NCBI RefSeq assembly: GCF_003576245.1 | Contig: NZ_QWGA01000003.1 | Span: 1 to 64,000, forward strand | Reading direction: 5' to 3' | DNA from: Henriciella algicola | Lineage (GTDB): Bacteria; Pseudomonadota; Alphaproteobacteria; Caulobacterales; Hyphomonadaceae | DNA length: 64,000 bases | The notes under the pieces: model-generated | Told to the model about the DNA's origin: nothing | The model's database searches: none | Seen by the model: only the letters and a program-made list of their open reading frames with translations | Made by a program: the position numbers and the translations under genes | Shown here: positions 30,540-38,650 of the stretch, piece after piece | How positions within the stretch are numbered: position 1 is the stretch's first letter | Layout of the letters: each line of letters starts with the position of its first letter

Positions 30540-31406
30540 ATGCGCTTTGAAGGCACTGAGAATTACGTTGCAACCGAAGACCTTCGTGTCGCTGTGAACG
30601 CGGCAATTGCCCTCCAGCGGCCGCTGCTGGTCAAGGGTGAGCCTGGCACCGGCAAGACCGTTCTGGCAATCGAAGTCGCAAAAGCGCTCGGCGTGCCGCT
30701 GATCGAATGGCACATCAAATCGTCCACCAAGGCTCAGCAAGGCCTCTACGAGTACGACGCCGTGTCCCGTCTGCGTGACGGTCAGATGGGCGAGGAACGC
30801 GCCAAGGACATCTCCAACTACATCAAGAAGGGCAAGCTCTGGGAGGCTTTCACCTCCGACGAACGCCCGATCCTGCTGATCGACGAAATCGACAAGGCTG
30901 ACATCGAATTCCCGAACGACCTCCTGCAGGAGCTCGATCGCATGGAGTTCTATGTCTACGAGACCGATGAAACGGTGAAAGCCAAGCAGCGCCCACTCGT
31001 CATCATCACCTCGAACAATGAAAAAGAGCTCCCGGACGCGTTCCTGCGCCGTTGCTTCTTCCACTTCATCAAATTCCCGGACGAGCAGACGATGAAAGAG
31101 ATCATCGACGTCCACTATCCGGGCATCAAGCAGAAGCTGGTCGCCGAAGCACTCACCACTTTCTACTCCATGCGCGAAGTTCCGGGCATGAAGAAAAAGC
31201 CATCGACCAGCGAACTGCTCGACTGGCTGAAGCTCCTGATGAATGAAGACATCGACCTTGAGACCCTCAAGGAACAGGACCCGGACAAGCTGACACCACC
31301 ACTGCACGGCGCACTTCTCAAGAACGAGCAGGACGTTGCCCTGTTTGAGCGCCTTGCCTTCCTGTCGCGCCGCGAAAGCGGTGGCCGCCGCGGCCCTGCG
31401 GGCTAG
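30540..31406 (+). CDS. MoxR-type AAA+ ATPase
   Basis: The 288-residue protein is a MoxR-family AAA+ ATPase, a group that usually acts as a chaperone inserting cofactors or activating partner complexes. Walker A is GEPGTGKT (about residue 38), Walker B is PILLIDEIDKAD, and sensor 1 is VIITSNNEKELPDAFLRRC. The start has GGGAG seven bases upstream. MoxR genes normally sit next to a von Willebrand factor A (CoxE-like) partner. Here the downstream gene is the convergent tlyA, overlapping by four bases, so no partner is adjacent. Confidence 0.92.
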   Translation: MRFEGTENYVATEDLRVAVNAAIALQRPLLVKGEPGTGKTVLAIEVAKALGVPLIEWHIKSSTKAQQGLYEYDAVSRLRDGQMGEERAKDISNYIKKGKLWEAFTSDERPILLIDEIDKADIEFPNDLLQELDRMEFYVYETDETVKAKQRPLVIITSNNEKELPDAFLRRCFFHFIKFPDEQTMKEIIDVHYPGIKQKLVAEALTTFYSMREVPGMKKKPSTSELLDWLKLLMNEDIDLETLKEQDPDKLTPPLHGALLKNEQDVALFERLAFLSRRESGGRRGPAG

Positions 31407-32134
31407 GCCTTCACAGCATGAATGAGGCGTTCGGCATTGCCGTCGCCGCCAAGGATCGGGCTGTCAGTTTTCGCGCTGACAGCCCAATTCATATCGGCCA
31501 GCCAGTCGCAGAATGCGGCCTCGGCGCGCGTTACCGCTTCTCTGTCCGTCACCAGCCCACCTTTGCCAACGAACTCACGCCCGACCTCGAACTGTGGCTT
31601 GAACAGTGTCACCAGTTCGCCCCCCGAAGCGGCGAGCGAAAGCGGCGCTTCGAGAAGTTTCGCCAGAGAGATAAAGCTCGCATCACAGACGATGAGTGAT
31701 GGCGCGTGTCCGACCATCTCTGCCGTCAGGGACCGCGCATCCGTCGCCTCATAGGAGGTGACACGTGGATCGCGCGCGATCTTCTCATGAAGCTGCCCGC
31801 GCCCGACATCGACCGCGACAACGCTTGCTGCGCCGCGTTGCAAAAGCACGTCGGTGAAGCCCCCAGTCGACGCGCCGACATCAAGGCAATGTCGACCGGC
31901 AGGGTCCACGCCGAAAACAACCAGCGCATGGGCGAGTTTTAACCCGCCGCGAGACACATAAGGATGGGCAGGCTCTGCCTGCAGCCGGTCAGCCGGTCCG
32001 ATCACCTGGGACGTCTTCTGGGCTCGCCGGCCATTTACCAGCACGGTACCTGCAGCGACAGCAGCTTGCGCCGCTGACCGGCTATCAAAATAGCCCTGGG
32101 TAACAAGTGCCTTGTCCAGTCTTTCTGTCGTCAT
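31403..32134 (-). CDS. tlyA: TlyA-family rRNA 2'-O-methyltransferase (S4 plus FtsJ domains)
   Basis: The 243-residue product has an N-terminal S4 RNA-binding domain (RLDKALVTQGYFDSRSAAQAAV) and an FtsJ-type methyltransferase domain. The SAM site is CLDVGASTGGFTDVLLQRGA, and VVAVDVGRGQLHEKI and SLIVCDASFISL follow. TlyA methylates cytidines in 16S and/or 23S rRNA in actinobacteria and others, and its loss there causes capreomycin resistance. The ATG at 32134 is preferred over a GTG 12 codons upstream because the S4 domain starts right after it. It is convergent with moxR and divergent from an SDR gene. Confidence 0.88.
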   Translation of the reverse strand: MTTERLDKALVTQGYFDSRSAAQAAVAAGTVLVNGRRAQKTSQVIGPADRLQAEPAHPYVSRGGLKLAHALVVFGVDPAGRHCLDVGASTGGFTDVLLQRGAASVVAVDVGRGQLHEKIARDPRVTSYEATDARSLTAEMVGHAPSLIVCDASFISLAKLLEAPLSLAASGGELVTLFKPQFEVGREFVGKGGLVTDREAVTRAEAAFCDWLADMNWAVSAKTDSPILGGDGNAERLIHAVKA

Positions 32135-32218
32135 TCGCGGGCCTGTGAAAATGTCTCGGAACGCTCGCACCTGCGGCCCGTTCGCCTAGCGTAAACCAGA
32201 ATGGAAAGAGAGACTAGA

Positions 32219-32968
32219 ATGTCGAGATTTGAAGGTAAGCGCATCCTCATTACCGGCGGCACGAGCGGTATCGGCCTCGCCACGGCGCTTCGCATCGTCG
32301 AGGAAGGCGGCGAGGTCGGCGTAACAGGCCGCAGCCAGGACCACCTTAATGAAGCAGGAAAGAAACTTCCATCCGGGTCACTCGTGCTACGCAATGATGC
32401 TTCCAGCGCAGAGGAAGCAAAGCAGCTAGCCGAAGCGGTTGGCGAGAAGATGGGAAAGCTCGACGGCCTCTATCTCAATGCCGGATACGGCGCCTTCAAG
32501 GAGGTCGGGCAGCACGACACCGACTTCTTCGATCAGATGATGAACACGAATGTCCGGGGGCCGCTTCTGCATATGGACCTACTCAAGGACAACATAACTG
32601 ATGGTGGCGCAGTGCTCCTGACCTCGTCCGTCGCCGCCTATCTTGGTCAAGCACCGGGCGCTGTCTATGGCGCATCAAAAGCATCAATGGCCGTCTTCGC
32701 TCGGTCCTTCTCTTCCGCGCTGGCACCGCGTCAGATCCGCGTAAATTCGATTGCCCCGGGGCCGATCGAAACAAACTTCTTTGACACAGCGGTCGATGAT
32801 GAAGAGCAGAAGAAGGAGATGACGGAGCAGATCAGATCACAGGTGCCACTTGGTCGGTTTGGCAAGGCGGAAGAAGTTGCCGCCGTCGCATCTTTCCTGC
32901 TGTCTGACGATGCCTCTTACGTCACCGGCTCCGAATATGTCGTCGATGGTGGCATGACAAAACGCTGA
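32219..32968 (+). CDS. SDR-family oxidoreductase
   Basis: This 249-residue classical short-chain dehydrogenase has the cofactor motif TGGTSGIGLA near the N-terminus, NAGYG after the fourth strand, and the catalytic Ser/Tyr/Lys in LLTSSVAAYLG and YGASKASMAVFARS. The C-terminus has the common VNSIAPGPIET and VTGSEYVVDGG blocks. TGRS at the end of strand 2 is compatible with NADP(H) preference. The start at 32219 (MSRFEGKR) has a purine-rich GAGAG upstream. Substrate unknown. It is divergent from tlyA and precedes the sodC-like gene by 39 bases. Confidence 0.88.
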   Translation: MSRFEGKRILITGGTSGIGLATALRIVEEGGEVGVTGRSQDHLNEAGKKLPSGSLVLRNDASSAEEAKQLAEAVGEKMGKLDGLYLNAGYGAFKEVGQHDTDFFDQMMNTNVRGPLLHMDLLKDNITDGGAVLLTSSVAAYLGQAPGAVYGASKASMAVFARSFSSALAPRQIRVNSIAPGPIETNFFDTAVDDEEQKKEMTEQIRSQVPLGRFGKAEEVAAVASFLLSDDASYVTGSEYVVDGGMTKR

Positions 32969-33007
32969 TCGAACTATGTTACAATGTGTCCAAACAGGAG
33001 AATATTC

Positions 33008-33628
33008 ATGAGCCGCTTCCTACCCCTATCCGCCGCAGCCGCTTCGATTGCGATCGTTTTTGCCTGCACGCAGCAAACCTCGGATGCCCAGCAAGACACG
33101 ACCTCCGCTGACAATGGCGCAGAAATGCAAGCTGACATGCCGCCTTCCGAAATGGAGATGGACGGCAACGAGTCCCTTCCTTCCATGATGCGCGCCACTG
33201 GCGACCTTATGGGCAATGAGGGCGACACGATTGGCAGCGTGAACATGATCGAAGGTCCGAATGGCATCGTCATGGAAGTGTCGATCAATGAAGGCGGCCT
33301 CACGCCAGGCTGGCACGCCGTCCACATTCACCAGACCGGCGACTGTAGCGATACGGGCGAGTACACCGCTTCTGGCGGCCATGTCGGCAAGATCGAAGGC
33401 GGTCACGGCCTCCTCAATCCAGCCGGCCCAGAGCCAGGCGACCTGCCAAACCTCTACGCTTTCGAGGATGGCTCGGTTAACTTCGAAACCTTCACTGACC
33501 TTGTCGCTCTTTCCGACGTGATGGATGACGATGGCGGCGCGATTATTATCCACGAAGGCCGCGACGACCATATGAGCCAGCCAATTGGCGGCGCCGGCGG
33601 ACGTATTGCCTGCGCAGTCGTTCAATAA
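33008..33628 (+). CDS. CuZn superoxide dismutase-like lipoprotein with altered zinc ligand
   Basis: The 206-residue protein has a signal peptide ending SIAIVFAC (probable lipidation at Cys). A Met/Asp/Glu-rich linker precedes a SodC-type beta-barrel. Copper ligands are intact: His106 and His108 (HAVHIHQTGDC), His125 (SGGH) and His182 (IIHEGRDD). Zinc ligands His125, His133 and Asp145 are present, but the third zinc His is replaced by Glu142 (GPEPGDLPNL). The disulfide cysteines (GDC and IACAVV) remain. AGGAG lies eight bases before the start. It is probably a periplasmic dismutase, but the zinc site may be altered or weak. A terminator follows. Confidence 0.86.
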   Translation: MSRFLPLSAAAASIAIVFACTQQTSDAQQDTTSADNGAEMQADMPPSEMEMDGNESLPSMMRATGDLMGNEGDTIGSVNMIEGPNGIVMEVSINEGGLTPGWHAVHIHQTGDCSDTGEYTASGGHVGKIEGGHGLLNPAGPEPGDLPNLYAFEDGSVNFETFTDLVALSDVMDDDGGAIIIHEGRDDHMSQPIGGAGGRIACAVVQ

Positions 33629-33653
33629 GCGTCTGACCTAAACCAGAAATGCG

Positions 33654-33688
33654 AACGCCGCCTCCTTTAGGGGGGCGGCGTTTTCTTT
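33654..33688 (+). terminator. Intrinsic terminator after the sodC-like gene
   Basis: AACGCCGCC and GGCGGCGTT form a 9-bp stem that merges into TTTTCTTTT on the plus strand. It sits between the converging sodC-like and arfB genes; there is no T-run in the opposite direction. Confidence 0.88.
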
Positions 33689-33707
33689 TGGCCGAAGACC
33701 GTTGCGA

Positions 33708-34136
33708 CTAAGGATCGACCTTGCCGCGGAGCGCTTTCTTTTCGCCGGTTTCTTTCTTGGCCTTTATCCTCCGCTCGACCGAGCCGCGCGTCGGGCGGGT
33801 CGGAATGCGGCGCTTACGCTTCTTTGCTGCCTTCCGGATCATGGAGGTGAGGCGATCACGCGCCGCATCGCGGTTCAGCGCCTGCGAGCGGTGTTCGCTC
33901 GCGTCCACAATCACGTCACCCTCTTTTGTAATCCTGTTCTTCCAGATTTGACGGAAGCGCGTCTTGATGCGCGCGGGGACGGAGGATGCATCGACATTCC
34001 ACCGCAGCTGCACCGCGCTCGAGACCTTGTTCACATTCTGCCCGCCCGGCCCGGAAGAGCGCGTGAACGTCTCCACGAGCTCCCAATGGGGAACCGTCAG
34101 TTCATCGTCGATTTCGAGATTTTGTTGGCGGGCCAT
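33708..34136 (-). CDS. arfB: Ribosome-rescue peptidyl-tRNA hydrolase ArfB
   Basis: The 142-residue product matches ArfB (YaeJ/ICT1 family), which hydrolyses peptidyl-tRNA on ribosomes stalled without a stop codon. The catalytic GGQ motif is at residues 31-33 (SSGPGGQNVNK). The basic C-terminal tail (KKRKRRIPTRPTRGSVERR and beyond) that probes the empty mRNA channel is present. Length is typical. SmpB, of the trans-translation rescue pathway, is encoded about 4 kb away, so the window holds two parallel rescue systems. Confidence 0.94.
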   Translation of the reverse strand: MARQQNLEIDDELTVPHWELVETFTRSSGPGGQNVNKVSSAVQLRWNVDASSVPARIKTRFRQIWKNRITKEGDVIVDASEHRSQALNRDAARDRLTSMIRKAAKKRKRRIPTRPTRGSVERRIKAKKETGEKKALRGKVDP

Positions 34137-34259
34137 GATGAAGGACTTGTTCAGCTAAGGTTCAAGCTTGGAACCCCATAATTAGTTAACGCTTGTATTC
34201 AGACCAGAAACATTTCCGGGCAAGGGTCCGGTGAGCGAACTTGTAAAAGGAGGCTCCTC

Positions 34260-34820
34260 ATGGCGTTCAGAAAACTACTTCTCCGTATTGGTGCCGCAGG
34301 AGCTCTCGCGCTTGTGGCGTTCACACCCGTCGCAGCTGCCGACCAGCGCGGTGACCGCGGACATTATGACCGGGGCGATCGAGGCGACCGCTATCATGGT
34401 AACCGTGATCGCGGCAATCGTGGCTACCATCGCGGTGACCGACGTGGCGACTACCATCACCGCCGCGACCAGCGGCGCGACTATCGCCGCGGCCGCGATT
34501 ACTATCGTGACCACAACCGCCACTACAATCGCGGCCGGGTCGTCACGCGCAACTATTACAGTTCGCCGACCTATTACCGTCCTCGCCCGCGCGTCGTCTA
34601 TCACTACAATCGTGGCTACCACCACCCGCGCTATACGATTGGTAACCGTTATCACTACGGCTCCAACTCTGTGATCATTCGCGATTATGGCCGCTACGGT
34701 CTCTACAATCCGCCGCGCGGTCATCAGTGGGTCCACCACCGCGGCAGCAATGATGCGGTCCTGACCTCAGTCGCCACCGGCGCAATCGTCGGCCTCGCGA
34801 TTGGCATCCTGAGCCAATAG
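34260..34820 (+). CDS. RcnB-like exported protein with Arg/Asp/His/Tyr repeats
   Basis: The 186-residue protein has a signal peptide (LLLRIGAAGALALVAFTPVAAA). A long low-complexity stretch, about residues 29-95, is built from short RGDR, DRGN and HRGDRR-like units rich in Arg, Asp, His and Tyr. The C-terminal part (YGLYNPPRGHQWVHHRGSND then VLTSVATGAIVGLAIG) is the RcnB-type module, which in E. coli helps nickel/cobalt homeostasis. The His-rich repeats could bind metal or nucleic acid, but this is unproven. The start has AGGAG seven bases upstream, and an intrinsic terminator follows. Confidence 0.8.
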   Translation: MAFRKLLLRIGAAGALALVAFTPVAAADQRGDRGHYDRGDRGDRYHGNRDRGNRGYHRGDRRGDYHHRRDQRRDYRRGRDYYRDHNRHYNRGRVVTRNYYSSPTYYRPRPRVVYHYNRGYHHPRYTIGNRYHYGSNSVIIRDYGRYGLYNPPRGHQWVHHRGSNDAVLTSVATGAIVGLAIGILSQ

Positions 34821-34845
34821 AGCAGGCATCAGACCACCAAACAGA

Positions 34846-34876
34846 AAGCCGGCTGCAGATCGCAGCCGGCTTTTTT
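34846..34876 (+). terminator. Intrinsic terminator after the RcnB-like gene
   Basis: AAGCCGGCTGC and GCAGCCGGCTT pair perfectly (11 bp) around a five-base loop and run into TTTTTT. Confidence 0.92.
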
Positions 34877-34962
34877 AATGTCGCGCCCTTTAAATCGCCG
34901 CAAATCATGTTCTATTTGAGGTACCGGGCGCGCCTTGCGGTCGGTGTTCTGTATCAACAGCT

Positions 34963-34977
34963 GAAAGGAGGTGATCC
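34963..34977 (+). promoter_or_regulatory. Extended 15-base Shine-Dalgarno sequence
   Basis: GAAAGGAGGTGATCC is complementary to the whole 3' end of bacterial 16S rRNA (GGATCACCTCCTTTC in alphaproteobacteria), far longer than the usual 4-6 bases. The AGGAGG core is seven bases from an ATG, the optimal distance. Such length would give very tight 30S binding. An alternative reading is a stray antisense fragment of a 16S gene, but the well-placed start codon argues against that. Confidence 0.75.
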
Positions 34978-34978
34978 A

Positions 34979-35059
34979 ATGTCGAGTGAGAAACCAGGAA
35001 CGGCAAATGGGTCCGTCTGTGCTGGTGGCCTTGGAGAGCAACCTCTCTCTGTTTGCTAG
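34979..35059 (+). CDS. Putative 26-residue small protein or leader peptide
   Basis: A 26-codon ORF (start MSSEKPGTANGSVCAGG, end EQPLSVC, then TAG) directly follows the 15-base Shine-Dalgarno. It is bounded by the RcnB-like terminator upstream (ends 34876) and its own terminator at 35118, so it appears to be an independent short transcript of roughly 200 bases. The peptide has no signal or membrane segment and contains two cysteines. A short hairpin (GAGAG/CTCTC) lies inside the ORF near its end, and an imperfect one (GGTAGG/CCTGCC arms) follows the stop. It may be a translated small protein, a leader, or a structured RNA that captures ribosomes. No downstream same-strand gene exists for it to regulate in cis. 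Confidence 0.6.
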   Translation: MSSEKPGTANGSVCAGGLGEQPLSVC

Positions 35060-35117
35060 CACTGACCTTGGGTAGGCATTGCCCTGCCAGGATTCATGGG
35101 CCAATCCGGCTCACGGA

Positions 35118-35146
35118 GGCCACCCCTCGGGGGTGGCCTTTTCGTT
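35118..35146 (+). terminator. Intrinsic terminator of the small ORF transcript
   Basis: GGCCACCCC and GGGGTGGCC form a 9-bp perfect stem with a three-base TCG loop, followed by TTTTCGTT. It ends the short transcript 14 bases before the end of the converging lytic transglycosylase gene. Confidence 0.88.
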
Positions 35147-35159
35147 TGCCGGTCGCTCG

Positions 35160-37193
35160 CTAGTACCTGCCTCTGTTGAGGTCTTCCGTCAGACGGATAT
35201 CTACCGCCTCCCCGGCAATGCGCTGACGATACACCTGCGTATTCTCCAGCACGCGCTGCACATAGTTGCGCGTCTCGGCGAACGGGATGAACTCCACCCA
35301 GTCGATCGGGTCGATCTCGCCCCGGCGCGGGTCACCATATTCCTGCATCCAGCGGCGCGGACGCGACGCCCCGGCATTATAGGCCGCCGCCGTCATGATA
35401 TAGCTGCCATTGAACTGGCCGAGCAGCGTGTCCAGGTGGGAGCCACCAAGGGTCATGTTGTAACCCGGGTCATCGGTCAGCCACGATGTCCGGAACGGCA
35501 GTCCGAGACGGCGAGCTTCCTCCCGCGCGGTCGCCGGCAGGAATTGCATCAGTCCCCGCGCATTGGCGTGCGACACCGCCGATGGGTTCATCTCGCTTTC
35601 CTGACGGGCGAGCGCATAGATCATCGCCCGCTCAACATTCGGTTCGCGCTGGAGCGGAAAATTCGGGATCGGGAACACTGCCTGCGGCGCGATCACATTC
35701 TTGGCGAGCCCCGCCTTTGCACCGCGCACGCCAACCTCGGGATAGAGATAGTCGTTCGCGACCTCTGACAGCAGCACATAGTCAGCCTCGGTCTCCAACG
35801 TATCGTCGATATTGTAGGCGAAACGGCGGAAATCCATTTCCTGCCCGTTCTCCGCCAACAGGATCGCCGCCTTCACCTGCGGCCGGCTCATGAACGCATT
35901 GCGCTCGGCATCCGTCACATCGGCTTCGGTCTTCAGGTAGATCCGCTGCAGGCCTGCCTTCTCAGCGGCCAGCTGGCCATAATAGACGTAGGGATACTGC
36001 GCCGCCTTCTGATAGCTCGCGGCCGCCTCGACCTGGTTGCCCAGCGCCTCATAGGTGCGCCCCTGCCAGTAATGCGCTCTGGCTTGGCTGATAGGGGTCG
36101 ATGTTCCCGTTTCGAGTGCTTTGAAGTGCGGGAGCGCCATTGAAGGCTGGTTCAGATGCCGAAGCGCCGTCCAGCCAGATACCCAGGCCGCCTCAGCGAA
36201 ATTCGCCCCCGAACCCATGCCATGGCGTGACCCGAGATTGTAGGCGAGCTGAAAATTGCGTTCCTGCAGCGCCTCACGGATCGGCCAGTGGCGAAGGTTC
36301 CACAGCGCATCCTGGCCCGCCGCCGGAACACCGGTGCCATCAATCTCTGCAAGCAGCGGCACCCAGTTCTCATCACGCTGACCGGCACGCTTGCGCCAGT
36401 TGGCGCGGTCGAACATCAGGCCGGGATGGTTCTGCAGGGATGCTGGTACCGCATCTACGGCTGCATCGACACCCGCTGCTCTCGCCTGCAGCCTGATCCG
36501 CGCCTCGATCAGCAGCGCCCAATCGCCTCCAACTCTCGACTTCAGTTGCGACGCCGCGGTGCGCTGGTTGGTCCAGAGCAGGAAATCAGCGCGTTTACGA
36601 TGATCATCCTGGGTCAACTGGCTGCCATACTGGTTGAGCACGCTTTGGGTGATCGAACTATTCAGCGTGTTGCCGTGCCAGGCATCGCGGATAAGCTTGA
36701 TTGCCTGATCGGATTGTCCCGTCCGGCGATAGGCTTCGGCCAAGGCGAATCGGCCTTCGCCGGATGCTGGTCCACCCATCTCCTCAAACCAGGCGATCTT
36801 CTGCTGATCGTTCAGCGCTGAGTCGGAAATCTGACCTTCTGCGCGCACTTGCAGCGTCGTCATAAACGGCCAGTCAGCACGCTGACGCAGCAGCACACTC
36901 ATTTCGTCAAAAGACATGTTCGGGTCGCTTCGACCACGAAACCAGGTGATGAGGTCACGCACCACTGCATCGCCGGATCTGGCCTGCAGGCTTCGCACCG
37001 TAGACCAGTCCCCGCGGTCCATTGCGGACACCGCATCACGGAACAGTCTAGCCTCGGCGGTCGTTACCACACTCGACGCGGGCACCAGGTCTGGCTTAAC
37101 ACTCGGAGAAGATGAGGGAATCGCCACTGCAATCGGTGATGCAGTCGCCAGCATTATTGCTGCTGTAATCGCTCTGTATGTGGTAACGCCCAT
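35160..37193 (-). CDS. Soluble lytic murein transglycosylase (Slt-type)
   Basis: This 677-residue periplasmic enzyme cleaves the MurNAc-GlcNAc bond of peptidoglycan to give anhydro-muropeptides. A signal peptide follows the ATG at 37193 (YRAITAAIMLATASPIAVA). A long alpha-helical superhelix with TPR-like repeats occupies the first 500 residues. The C-terminal SLT domain has ALARQESEMNPSAVSHANA with catalytic Glu532, then RGLMQFLPATA and AAYNAG. Size and layout match Slt70. A 21-codon upstream extension is unlikely because it would precede the signal peptide. It is divergent from dapA. Confidence 0.92.
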   Translation of the reverse strand: MGVTTYRAITAAIMLATASPIAVAIPSSSPSVKPDLVPASSVVTTAEARLFRDAVSAMDRGDWSTVRSLQARSGDAVVRDLITWFRGRSDPNMSFDEMSVLLRQRADWPFMTTLQVRAEGQISDSALNDQQKIAWFEEMGGPASGEGRFALAEAYRRTGQSDQAIKLIRDAWHGNTLNSSITQSVLNQYGSQLTQDDHRKRADFLLWTNQRTAASQLKSRVGGDWALLIEARIRLQARAAGVDAAVDAVPASLQNHPGLMFDRANWRKRAGQRDENWVPLLAEIDGTGVPAAGQDALWNLRHWPIREALQERNFQLAYNLGSRHGMGSGANFAEAAWVSGWTALRHLNQPSMALPHFKALETGTSTPISQARAHYWQGRTYEALGNQVEAAASYQKAAQYPYVYYGQLAAEKAGLQRIYLKTEADVTDAERNAFMSRPQVKAAILLAENGQEMDFRRFAYNIDDTLETEADYVLLSEVANDYLYPEVGVRGAKAGLAKNVIAPQAVFPIPNFPLQREPNVERAMIYALARQESEMNPSAVSHANARGLMQFLPATAREEARRLGLPFRTSWLTDDPGYNMTLGGSHLDTLLGQFNGSYIMTAAAYNAGASRPRRWMQEYGDPRRGEIDPIDWVEFIPFAETRNYVQRVLENTQVYRQRIAGEAVDIRLTEDLNRGRY

Positions 37194-37288
37194 TAGGCCC
37201 TGCCTGTTTTCTTTTGGCTGTTGAGATGTCAGACACTTTATCGTCCAACTCAGCATATGTGTAACATAAACTTCGCGGCAAAATCACG

Positions 37289-38164
37289 ATGTTCAATGGT
37301 TCAATTCCGGCACTAGTCACTCCGTTCCATAATGGGGAGGTCGACCGGAAAGCGTTTGCCGATCTCGTGGAGCGCCAGATCGAGAATGGCGCAGGCGGTC
37401 TTGTCCCCTGTGGCACCACTGGCGAGTCCGCCACGCTGAGCCACGCAGAACACCGCGAAGTCGTCAGCCTCTGCATCGAAGTGACAGCAGGCCGTGTGCC
37501 CGTGATTGCGGGCGCAGGCTCCAATTCGACGCGCGAAGCCATCGGCCTCGTCGAGCATGCCAAAGAAGCTGGCGCCGATGCCGCCCTTTGCGTCTGCCCC
37601 TATTACAACCGTCCGGATCAGGCTGGCCTTGAAGCCCATTTCCGCGCCATCGCGGACGCTGTCGCCCTGCCTATCATCCTCTACAACGTACCGGGCCGCA
37701 CCGTTTCAGACCTTCAACCCGAAACGGTCATCCGCCTCGGCAAGCACCCGAACATTGTCGGCATCAAGGATGCGACAGGTGATCTTGCGCGCATCAGCCT
37801 TCATTCGGCTGGCCTCAAGGGCGAGCAGTTCGTCCAGATATGCGGCGAAGACCCCGTCACGCTTGGCTACCGCGCCATGGGCGGCACCGGCTGTATCTCG
37901 GTCACCTCGAACGTTGCACCGGCTGAAATGGCGAAGATGCACAAGGCCATGGATGAGGCTGATCTAGAGACCGCACGCGAGATCGAAACCCGCTTCATCG
38001 CCCTCCACAAGGCACTCTTCTGCGCGCCATCACCAGGGCCCGCGAAGTTCGCACTGTCGCGCCTTGGCCTCTGCAGTGACGAGGTTCGCCTGCCGCTTGT
38101 CGCGCCAGATGATGCAGCCCGTCGCAGGATTGAGGCTGCAATGGAGATCGCAGGCCTTATATAG
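37289..38164 (+). CDS. dapA: 4-hydroxy-tetrahydrodipicolinate synthase
   Basis: The 291-residue enzyme condenses pyruvate with aspartate semialdehyde, the first committed step to lysine and meso-diaminopimelate for the cell wall. The family blocks GSIPALVTPF, VPCGTTGESATLSHAEH and YYNRPDQAGL are present. The proton-relay Tyr132 (LYNVPGRT) and the Schiff-base Lys160 (VGIKDATGD) are in the expected places. smpB begins six bases after its stop, a linkage seen in other alphaproteobacteria. It is divergent from the transglycosylase gene. Confidence 0.96.
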   Translation: MFNGSIPALVTPFHNGEVDRKAFADLVERQIENGAGGLVPCGTTGESATLSHAEHREVVSLCIEVTAGRVPVIAGAGSNSTREAIGLVEHAKEAGADAALCVCPYYNRPDQAGLEAHFRAIADAVALPIILYNVPGRTVSDLQPETVIRLGKHPNIVGIKDATGDLARISLHSAGLKGEQFVQICGEDPVTLGYRAMGGTGCISVTSNVAPAEMAKMHKAMDEADLETAREIETRFIALHKALFCAPSPGPAKFALSRLGLCSDEVRLPLVAPDDAARRRIEAAMEIAGLI

Positions 38165-38170
38165 CCTCCC

Positions 38171-38650
38171 ATGTCAAAGAAGAGCCAGATCAAGGGTCGC
38201 TCGGACGGCCTCGTTGCGGAAAACCGCCGCGCCCGCTTCGACTATCAGGTCGAGGACACGCTGGAGGCTGGCCTGCAGCTGCAGGGCAGCGAAGTGAAAT
38301 CGCTGCGGAACGGCCGCGCCAATATCGCAGAGTCCTATGCAGCCGTTGAGGAAGGCGAACTCTGGCTCGTGAATGCGGACTTCCCGCCCTATGAAGGCGC
38401 AAACCAGTTCAATCACGAACCCAAACGCCGCCGCAAACTCCTCGCCTCAAAGCGCGAGATCGCAGAGCTGTCCCAGAAAGTAGAGCGCGCAGGCCGCACA
38501 ATTGTCCCGCTAAAACTCTACTTCAACGACCGTGGCATGGCGAAACTGCTCATCGGTCTCGCAACCGGTAAGAAGGCGCCCGACAAGCGCGAAACCGCCA
38601 AGAAACGCGACTGGCAGCGCGAGAAGTCCCGCATCCTGAAAGAAAACTAG
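38171..38650 (+). CDS. smpB: SsrA-binding protein SmpB
   Basis: The 159-residue SmpB carries tmRNA to stalled ribosomes for trans-translation. Conserved blocks are [47 protein letters not shown] and the basic C-terminal tail [20 protein letters not shown], which mimics the anticodon arm and mRNA. It is six bases after dapA and probably cotranscribed with it. A palindromic repeat lies just downstream, between it and the convergent dehydratase gene. Confidence 0.97.

Follow-up and report, generated by a model that had tools for sequence, protein, structure and literature searches.

A divergent CC2171 (RF01867) RNA in Henriciella algicola keeps a short reading frame and a covarying helix that may compete with ribosome loading

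Comparative analysis of a 64,000-nucleotide stretch of the Henriciella algicola genome (the window) indicated that it carries an element that is almost certainly a divergent relative of the alphaproteobacterial RNA CC2171 (Rfam RF01867). Comparison across genomes supports this homology, the conservation of the frame, start and stop of a short ORF, and the covariation of a long-range helix (P1); it indicates that RNA structure and reading frame have both been kept, while the encoded peptide mostly has not. Our main reading, held tentatively and at somewhat less than an even chance, is that of a stand-alone structural RNA that is also translated, with ribosome loading and the closing of P1 in competition. 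Its features are listed in Table 1.

Table 1. Features of the CC2171-like element, in coordinates of the window
Feature	Positions	Strand	Basis
P0, short hairpin	34923..34945	+	fold of the upstream 62 nt; part of the transcript only if the start site lies upstream of P0
Extended Shine-Dalgarno (SD), 16 nt complementary to the 16S 3' region	34963..34978	+	sequence and computed duplex
26-codon ORF, ATG to TAG	34979..35059	+	conservation of frame and length
P1 5' strand, GUGAG (codons 3-4)	34986..34990	+	covariation across clades; pair probability 0.99-1.0; part of the Rfam CC2171 consensus
P2, hairpin inside the ORF, CARC loop	35033..35048	+	scan and covariation
P1 3' strand, CUCAC, just before the terminator	35110..35114	+	covariation and folding
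Terminator-like hairpin, UCG loop, T run of four	35117..35142	+	sequence; stems covary in alignments

The SD is complementary to the 3' region of the 16S rRNA of the same genome, which was located with Rfam: GAAAGGAGGTGATCC spans 34963-34977 and A34978 also matches, giving 16 nt, one more than the 15 claimed by an earlier sequence-only reading of this DNA. The free SD:anti-SD duplex was computed at -28.4 kcal/mol, compared with -8.6 for AGGAGG alone. The exact 11-mer AAAGGAGGTGA occurs at two sites in 3.2 Mb, the element and the strand opposite the 16S 3' end, and these are also the sole genomic sites of the 14-mer AAAGGAGGTGATCC when up to one mismatch is allowed. Directly downstream, an ATG (34979-34981) opens a frame of 26 codons (MSSEKPGTANGSVCAGGLGEQPLSVC) that closes with TAG (35057-35059), exactly as the sequence-only reading had it, and the hairpins that it placed in and after the ORF were found at 35033-35048 and 35117-35139. 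The latter is a strong stem with only four T behind it, then CG and another three T. A terminator scan did not list it on account of this short T run; we call a terminator on the grounds of the sequence itself and of the covarying stems in homologues. Upstream, where the sequence-only reading placed a second terminator, an RcnB-like gene is followed by a hairpin with a T run, seen by eye (34845-34877); the scan lists this one on the minus strand only. The next gene, the lytic transglycosylase slt (35160-37256, minus strand), is convergent, in agreement with the claim that no protein-coding gene follows on the same strand.

The element folds more stably than shuffled sequences (z -2.82; 2 of 200 shuffles fold equally well). 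A promoter scan recognised no sigma-70-like site, and a tRNA and tmRNA search of the window returned none. Hairpins at about the position of P0, differing in sequence, were seen by eye in the window's element and in most of the others in a set of 18, largely from the same genus; P0 may be a stem that stabilises the 5' end, or an operator. In 14 of these 18 elements a GANTC (CcrM methylation) site was also seen by eye at a similar place upstream (loci L010, L012, L013, L016-L018, L020, L021, L025-L028, L030 and L037), which hints at cell-cycle control; the window's own subclade (L002, L004, L006 and L008) has none.

An Rfam scan of the whole window at gathering scores returned no match. A permissive search recovered RF01867, named CC2171 and described as a "caulobacter sRNA", in all 20 of the homologous loci hand-picked from 120 (each with E <=0.025). 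In the window, the match extends from 34955 to 35139 and covers model positions 1-159 of 159 with 38.3 bits, and it was the sole match in a search of the whole genome (E 1.8e-6). Since this full-length match lies below the curated cut-off of 75, we describe membership as divergent homology; the family identity adds to what the sequence-only reading contained. The window element and CC2171 have in common a 5' CAACA together with GAAAGGAGGTGATCC, the position of the start, the register of the long-range helix (P1 forms part of the CC2171 consensus) and a terminator right after its 3' strand. Between the P1 strands, the internal helices of the model align poorly in the window, and P2 covaries in the window's clade. 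Rfam types RF01867 as an sRNA, whereas the ORF of the window type shows conservation of its frame.

Across the 29 genomes of the genus, RF01867 matched in 22 at E <=0.001 and reached the curated cut-off in none. A survey of 385 genomes of the class gave 85 with matches at E <=0.001, 13 of which passed the cut-off, so the family extends beyond what the cut-off implies and a curated cut-off can hide most members. The other 300 class genomes gave no match, which we count against the main reading. Among 14 control genomes, only Caulobacter vibrioides matched. At the DNA level, homologues were found in 58 of 101 genomes searched, the source genome included; the check for presence in close relatives gave homologues in 26 of the 28 other genomes of the genus, and the two genomes without a match (G005 and G023) are assemblies in 180 and 340 contigs. 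A sequence pattern matched in 60 of the 385 genomes of the class, in 138 of 249 from the order and, in a phylum-wide search, in 64 of 398, all 64 being among the 135 Alphaproteobacteria (71 of which had no match) and none among the 263 other genomes; all of these pattern searches also catch unrelated sites, for example L095 and L100. The plasmid and phage records searched contained no match to the element.

The CC2171 family reportedly comes from work by Landt in 2008. CcnA, considered as a candidate for the same RNA, presumably lies at a different locus near the origin. It was set aside (PMC8959179); its placement at another locus is based in part on the transcription start site table of PMC5988900. 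One further covarying pair is reported for RF01867 in the sections on Rfam 15 consulted (PMC11701678), and no function for the family was found in the portions consulted of the open-licence literature, including PMC11701678 and PMC5596092, the sole two papers that a full-text search there returned for RF01867.

To compare reading frames, elements were collected with a regular expression for the SD core followed by RTG, which yielded 287 elements from 308 loci, 259 of them distinct and with homology not verified singly. A frame of 18-26 codons from start to stop is present in 237 of the 259, whereas the two alternative frames give 30 and 32 such cases and shuffled bodies 16%. Seven elements have an ORF over 36 aa. 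Among the remaining 252 (ORF <=36 codons), starts are ATG in 178 and GTG in 74, and stops interchange between TGA (112), TAA (82) and TAG (58). Gaps point the same way: in alignment A2 (50 of 70 CATTGT/CATTGC elements, unfiltered for ORF length and with near-duplicates removed by hand), the gap length is divisible by three in 457 of 594 pairwise comparisons within the ORF and in 207 of 883 between stop and terminator, counts that give a direction and not a probability because related pairs are not independent. Alignment A1 (42 of 54 AGTGAG elements) shows zero ORF gaps, which we do not count because it was preselected for a 26-codon ORF. Two motifs mostly keep their frame where they are found: TGG does so in 35 of 37 CATTG elements (36 of 73 gave no such motif) and CAR-YCT in 81 of 84 AGTGA elements (5 of 89 gave none). 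In two CATTG elements, L151 and L213, a CTGGA motif lies in another frame and the ORF nonetheless stops at 23-25 codons, as though its middle had been frameshifted and then restored.

From this conservation, the element is probably translated in cells. Counting against a translated reading is a Caulobacter study which, in the part consulted, describes ncRNAs as mostly intergenic and their regions as untranslated by ribosome profiling; it also found two earlier ncRNAs to be translated, and either statement may apply to CC2171 (PMC4117421). In Sinorhizobium meliloti, some annotated sRNAs are reported with a translation efficiency of at least 1 in the sections consulted (PMC10117765).

P1 is a long-range helix that joins codons 3-5 to the segment immediately preceding the terminator. 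Its strands are nearly invariant within clades and co-vary between them, as in CATTGT(C)/(G)ACAATG, CATTGC/GCAATG, GTGAG/CTCAC, CATGGT/ACCATG, GTGTTT/AAACAC, ATGAGATT/AATCTCAT and others. After removal of ORFs over 36 aa and of elements without a called terminator, 241 of the 259 distinct elements remained; all five central P1 pairs are present in a fixed register in 165 of these, and the 76 without the full five pairs count against the main reading. Class-balanced pairing is 0.43 for cognate and 0.075 for non-cognate strands. When one representative was taken for each of 39 5' hexamers, the observed pairing was 5.58 and the permuted mean 4.43, with none of 500 permutations as high (the controls for P1 covariation are crude and not tree-aware).

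Folding of the window element gave the P1 pairs in Table 1 near certainty, with the start codon predicted to be 0.84-0.98 unpaired. The SD is predicted to be 0.61 unpaired in a transcript from 34954 and 0.31 unpaired in one from 34925, the latter counting against the main reading. A P1 probability of at least 0.5 was obtained in 157 of the 231 elements that passed a further length filter, and in only 12 of 31 CATGG-type (Sphingomonadales) elements, which is also a point against it. So is the size of P1, whose roughly 5-7 pairs would be easily melted by a translating ribosome. In P2, three of six pairs show two-sided changes, and the two outermost fail to form in 10 and 5 of the 42 sequences.

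The sequence-only reading had set out two outcomes, synonymous bias for a protein or compensatory stem changes with loss of the ORF for an RNA. The comparison gave a third, in which stems change in a compensatory manner and the ORF is kept. As for synonymous bias, a crude pairwise estimate of dN/dS for the codons after the fifth gave 0.47 in the window's clade, 0.93, 1.59 and 0.73 in three other clades, and 0.26 in a protein control. Among the 14 elements closest to the window's, variable positions fall at third (10), second (6) and first (4) codon positions, with 315 synonymous single-change codons against 266 others. There may thus be some amino-acid constraint in the window's clade, arising from the peptide or from the overlapping P2 hairpin, and these alignments indicate little or none in the three other clades. 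N-terminal residues track the helix and not one peptide (MSSE, MSHCH, MSHGS and others), and Pfam and NCBIfam searches returned no match for the three ORFs tested, the window's included. The peptide is probably mostly incidental. Peptides of 18-26 residues would stay in the ribosomal exit tunnel until release, in keeping with a peptide of no consequence.

The same chassis can, from its sequence, evidently carry a real signal-peptide protein in the Azospirillaceae. The SD pattern occurs in 60 of 82 Azospirillaceae-like genomes (the family of G445), and of 45 sites read (30 + 15 loci) from a total of 62, 34 have a longer ORF with a signal-peptide-like start and 11 a short ORF. All loci collected contain 35 distinct long versions, of 55-59 aa except for one of 47, with the consensus MSHGA.PV..LFGLAALLTAG.A.A behind the same 14-base SD (L340-L353, L355-L368, L377-L381, L383, L065, L169, L207 and L225). 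In 34 of the 35, an exact P1 partner of ORF positions 7-11 lies within 60 nt after the stop, where shuffles lead one to expect 2.0. dN/dS for this protein is 0.26 (33 sequences), and two genomes, G1000 and G1039, have a separate short CC2171-type copy beside the long gene. At locus L291, a different 56 aa ORF also has a signal-peptide-like start, and its early codons were seen by eye to pair with pre-terminator bases.

Genes adjoining the element differ between the clades and loci examined, and include SMC with MutS, cyclopropane synthase, acetyl-CoA synthetase and ExoD, among others. No conserved co-directional downstream gene was found in these loci (from rough ORF calling, mostly on loci of 3 kb), as both orientation and identity vary. 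Because neighbours differ in this way, a leader of one conserved gene is unlikely, and the independent unit proposed by the sequence-only reading agrees with the variable neighbours and with the lack of a conserved downstream target gene at the loci examined. Some neighbours recur within types of element: RcnB-like (27 loci), Slt (14) and SOD (10) genes adjoin AGTGAG-type elements only, ArfB-like genes are found at 28 loci (26 AGTGAG-type and two of other types) and TlyA at 16, all CATGGT-type; absent neighbours mean little because most loci comprise only 0.5-3 kb. We claim no functional link to neighbouring genes. In the window, a TlyA-like rRNA methylase, an ArfB-like release factor and SmpB lie nearby (31403-38650), possibly by chance, and L075 carries a tmRNA on the same 3 kb locus as the element, without overlap.

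We infer from these features that the RNA would be translated in cells and would alternate between two competing states. An SD complementary to the whole 16S 3' tail would catch 30S subunits very strongly, and the resulting ribosomes would read the short ORF (18-26 codons in most elements, 26 in the window) and then leave. Without an initiating ribosome, codons 3-5 would pair with the pre-terminator bases, and the closed P1 would give a ring-like fold with the P2 hairpin inside. The start of P1 falls within the footprint of an initiating ribosome; initiation would melt P1, the two would be mutually exclusive, and the RNA would be either open and ribosome-loaded or closed. Such competition could act as a read-out of, or feedback on, free initiating ribosomes, or could control the lifetime of the RNA. 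That the competition between P1 and the ribosome is the function is possible but rather doubtful. A more specific version, in which this is a widespread alphaproteobacterial RNA sensor of initiation-competent ribosomes, whose pairing test of the full 16S tail sets RNA lifetime or trans activity and whose peptide is a by-product, seems quite improbable.

Several other explanations bear on the same observations. If the element were the mRNA of a small protein, its peptide would be functional and evolve fast between clades, with P1 and P2 only tuning translation or stability. We consider this somewhat unlikely. The frame, start and stop are kept as it predicts and the window's clade shows moderate constraint (dN/dS of 0.47, with a third-position bias), yet values of 0.73-1.59 in the three other clades, N termini that follow the helix and the lack of a Pfam or NCBIfam match for the ORFs tested speak against it. 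The Azospirillaceae, in which the SD and the 3' pairing segment frame a signal-peptide protein of mostly 55-59 aa under clear constraint, keep it alive, although G1000 and G1039 have their short copy apart from the long gene. A classical trans-acting sRNA, with the ORF a remnant or by-product, would pair with mRNAs through its 5' end or loops, or its GGAGG-rich 5' end would act as a sponge for sRNAs with anti-SD loops. This is unlikely: conservation of frame and stop position would be unexplained in a non-coding RNA, and complementarity of 16 nt to the 16S tail exceeds any CCUCC loop. It would suit the filing of the family as an sRNA in Rfam and the element's own terminator and context, and, in the parts of the reports consulted, Rhizobiales have sRNAs whose loops carry CCUCC (PMC3927594), Caulobacter CrfA is reported as a sponge of the alphaR8 sRNAs SisA-D (PMC12559287) and Caulobacter ncRNA regions are described as untranslated (PMC4117421).

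We regard as very improbable a decoy that titrates ribosomes, whose long SD would hold 30S subunits while P1 blocked their progress, so that free 30S would fall. A single gene would need rRNA-like abundance to have this effect, and the conserved stop codon, frame and ORF length would be superfluous, despite the strength of the computed duplex, its being the only such site in the genome and a P1 that begins inside the footprint of the initiating ribosome. A decayed antisense 16S fragment or a chance SD, suggested by the 16 nt of identity to the 16S antisense strand, is practically refuted because the element is conserved: its anatomy recurs in many genomes with start codon and SD kept, and the identity stops just before the ATG.

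Known systems share single features with the element. Hok-type mRNAs, which are inhibited by folding back of the 5' end on the 3' end, resemble it in the long-range pairing of the translation start region with the 3' end; unlike theirs, the peptide here is not toxin-like or membrane-associated and is not conserved between clades, and no antisense partner was noticed. The rnTrpL/peTrpL RNA of Sinorhizobium is likewise a small terminated alphaproteobacterial RNA with a short translated ORF (14 aa), which, in the sections consulted, is leaderless and derives from the attenuator upstream of trpE (PMC10117765), whereas our element starts from a maximal SD in a context of its own, with no operon downstream. 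In Staphylococcus aureus, extended SD motifs also pair beyond the core, as a general feature of initiation according to the part consulted (PMC13009471); here, a single genomic site has such length.

A family filed as an sRNA thus combines, across many Alphaproteobacteria, conservation of a frame with a ribosome-binding site of maximal length and a closing helix that covaries. How RNAs of this sort acquire or shed a protein can be followed in the Azospirillaceae as a natural experiment, and the family as a whole poses a clean, testable question, namely whether it is translation itself, rather than the peptide, that is important.
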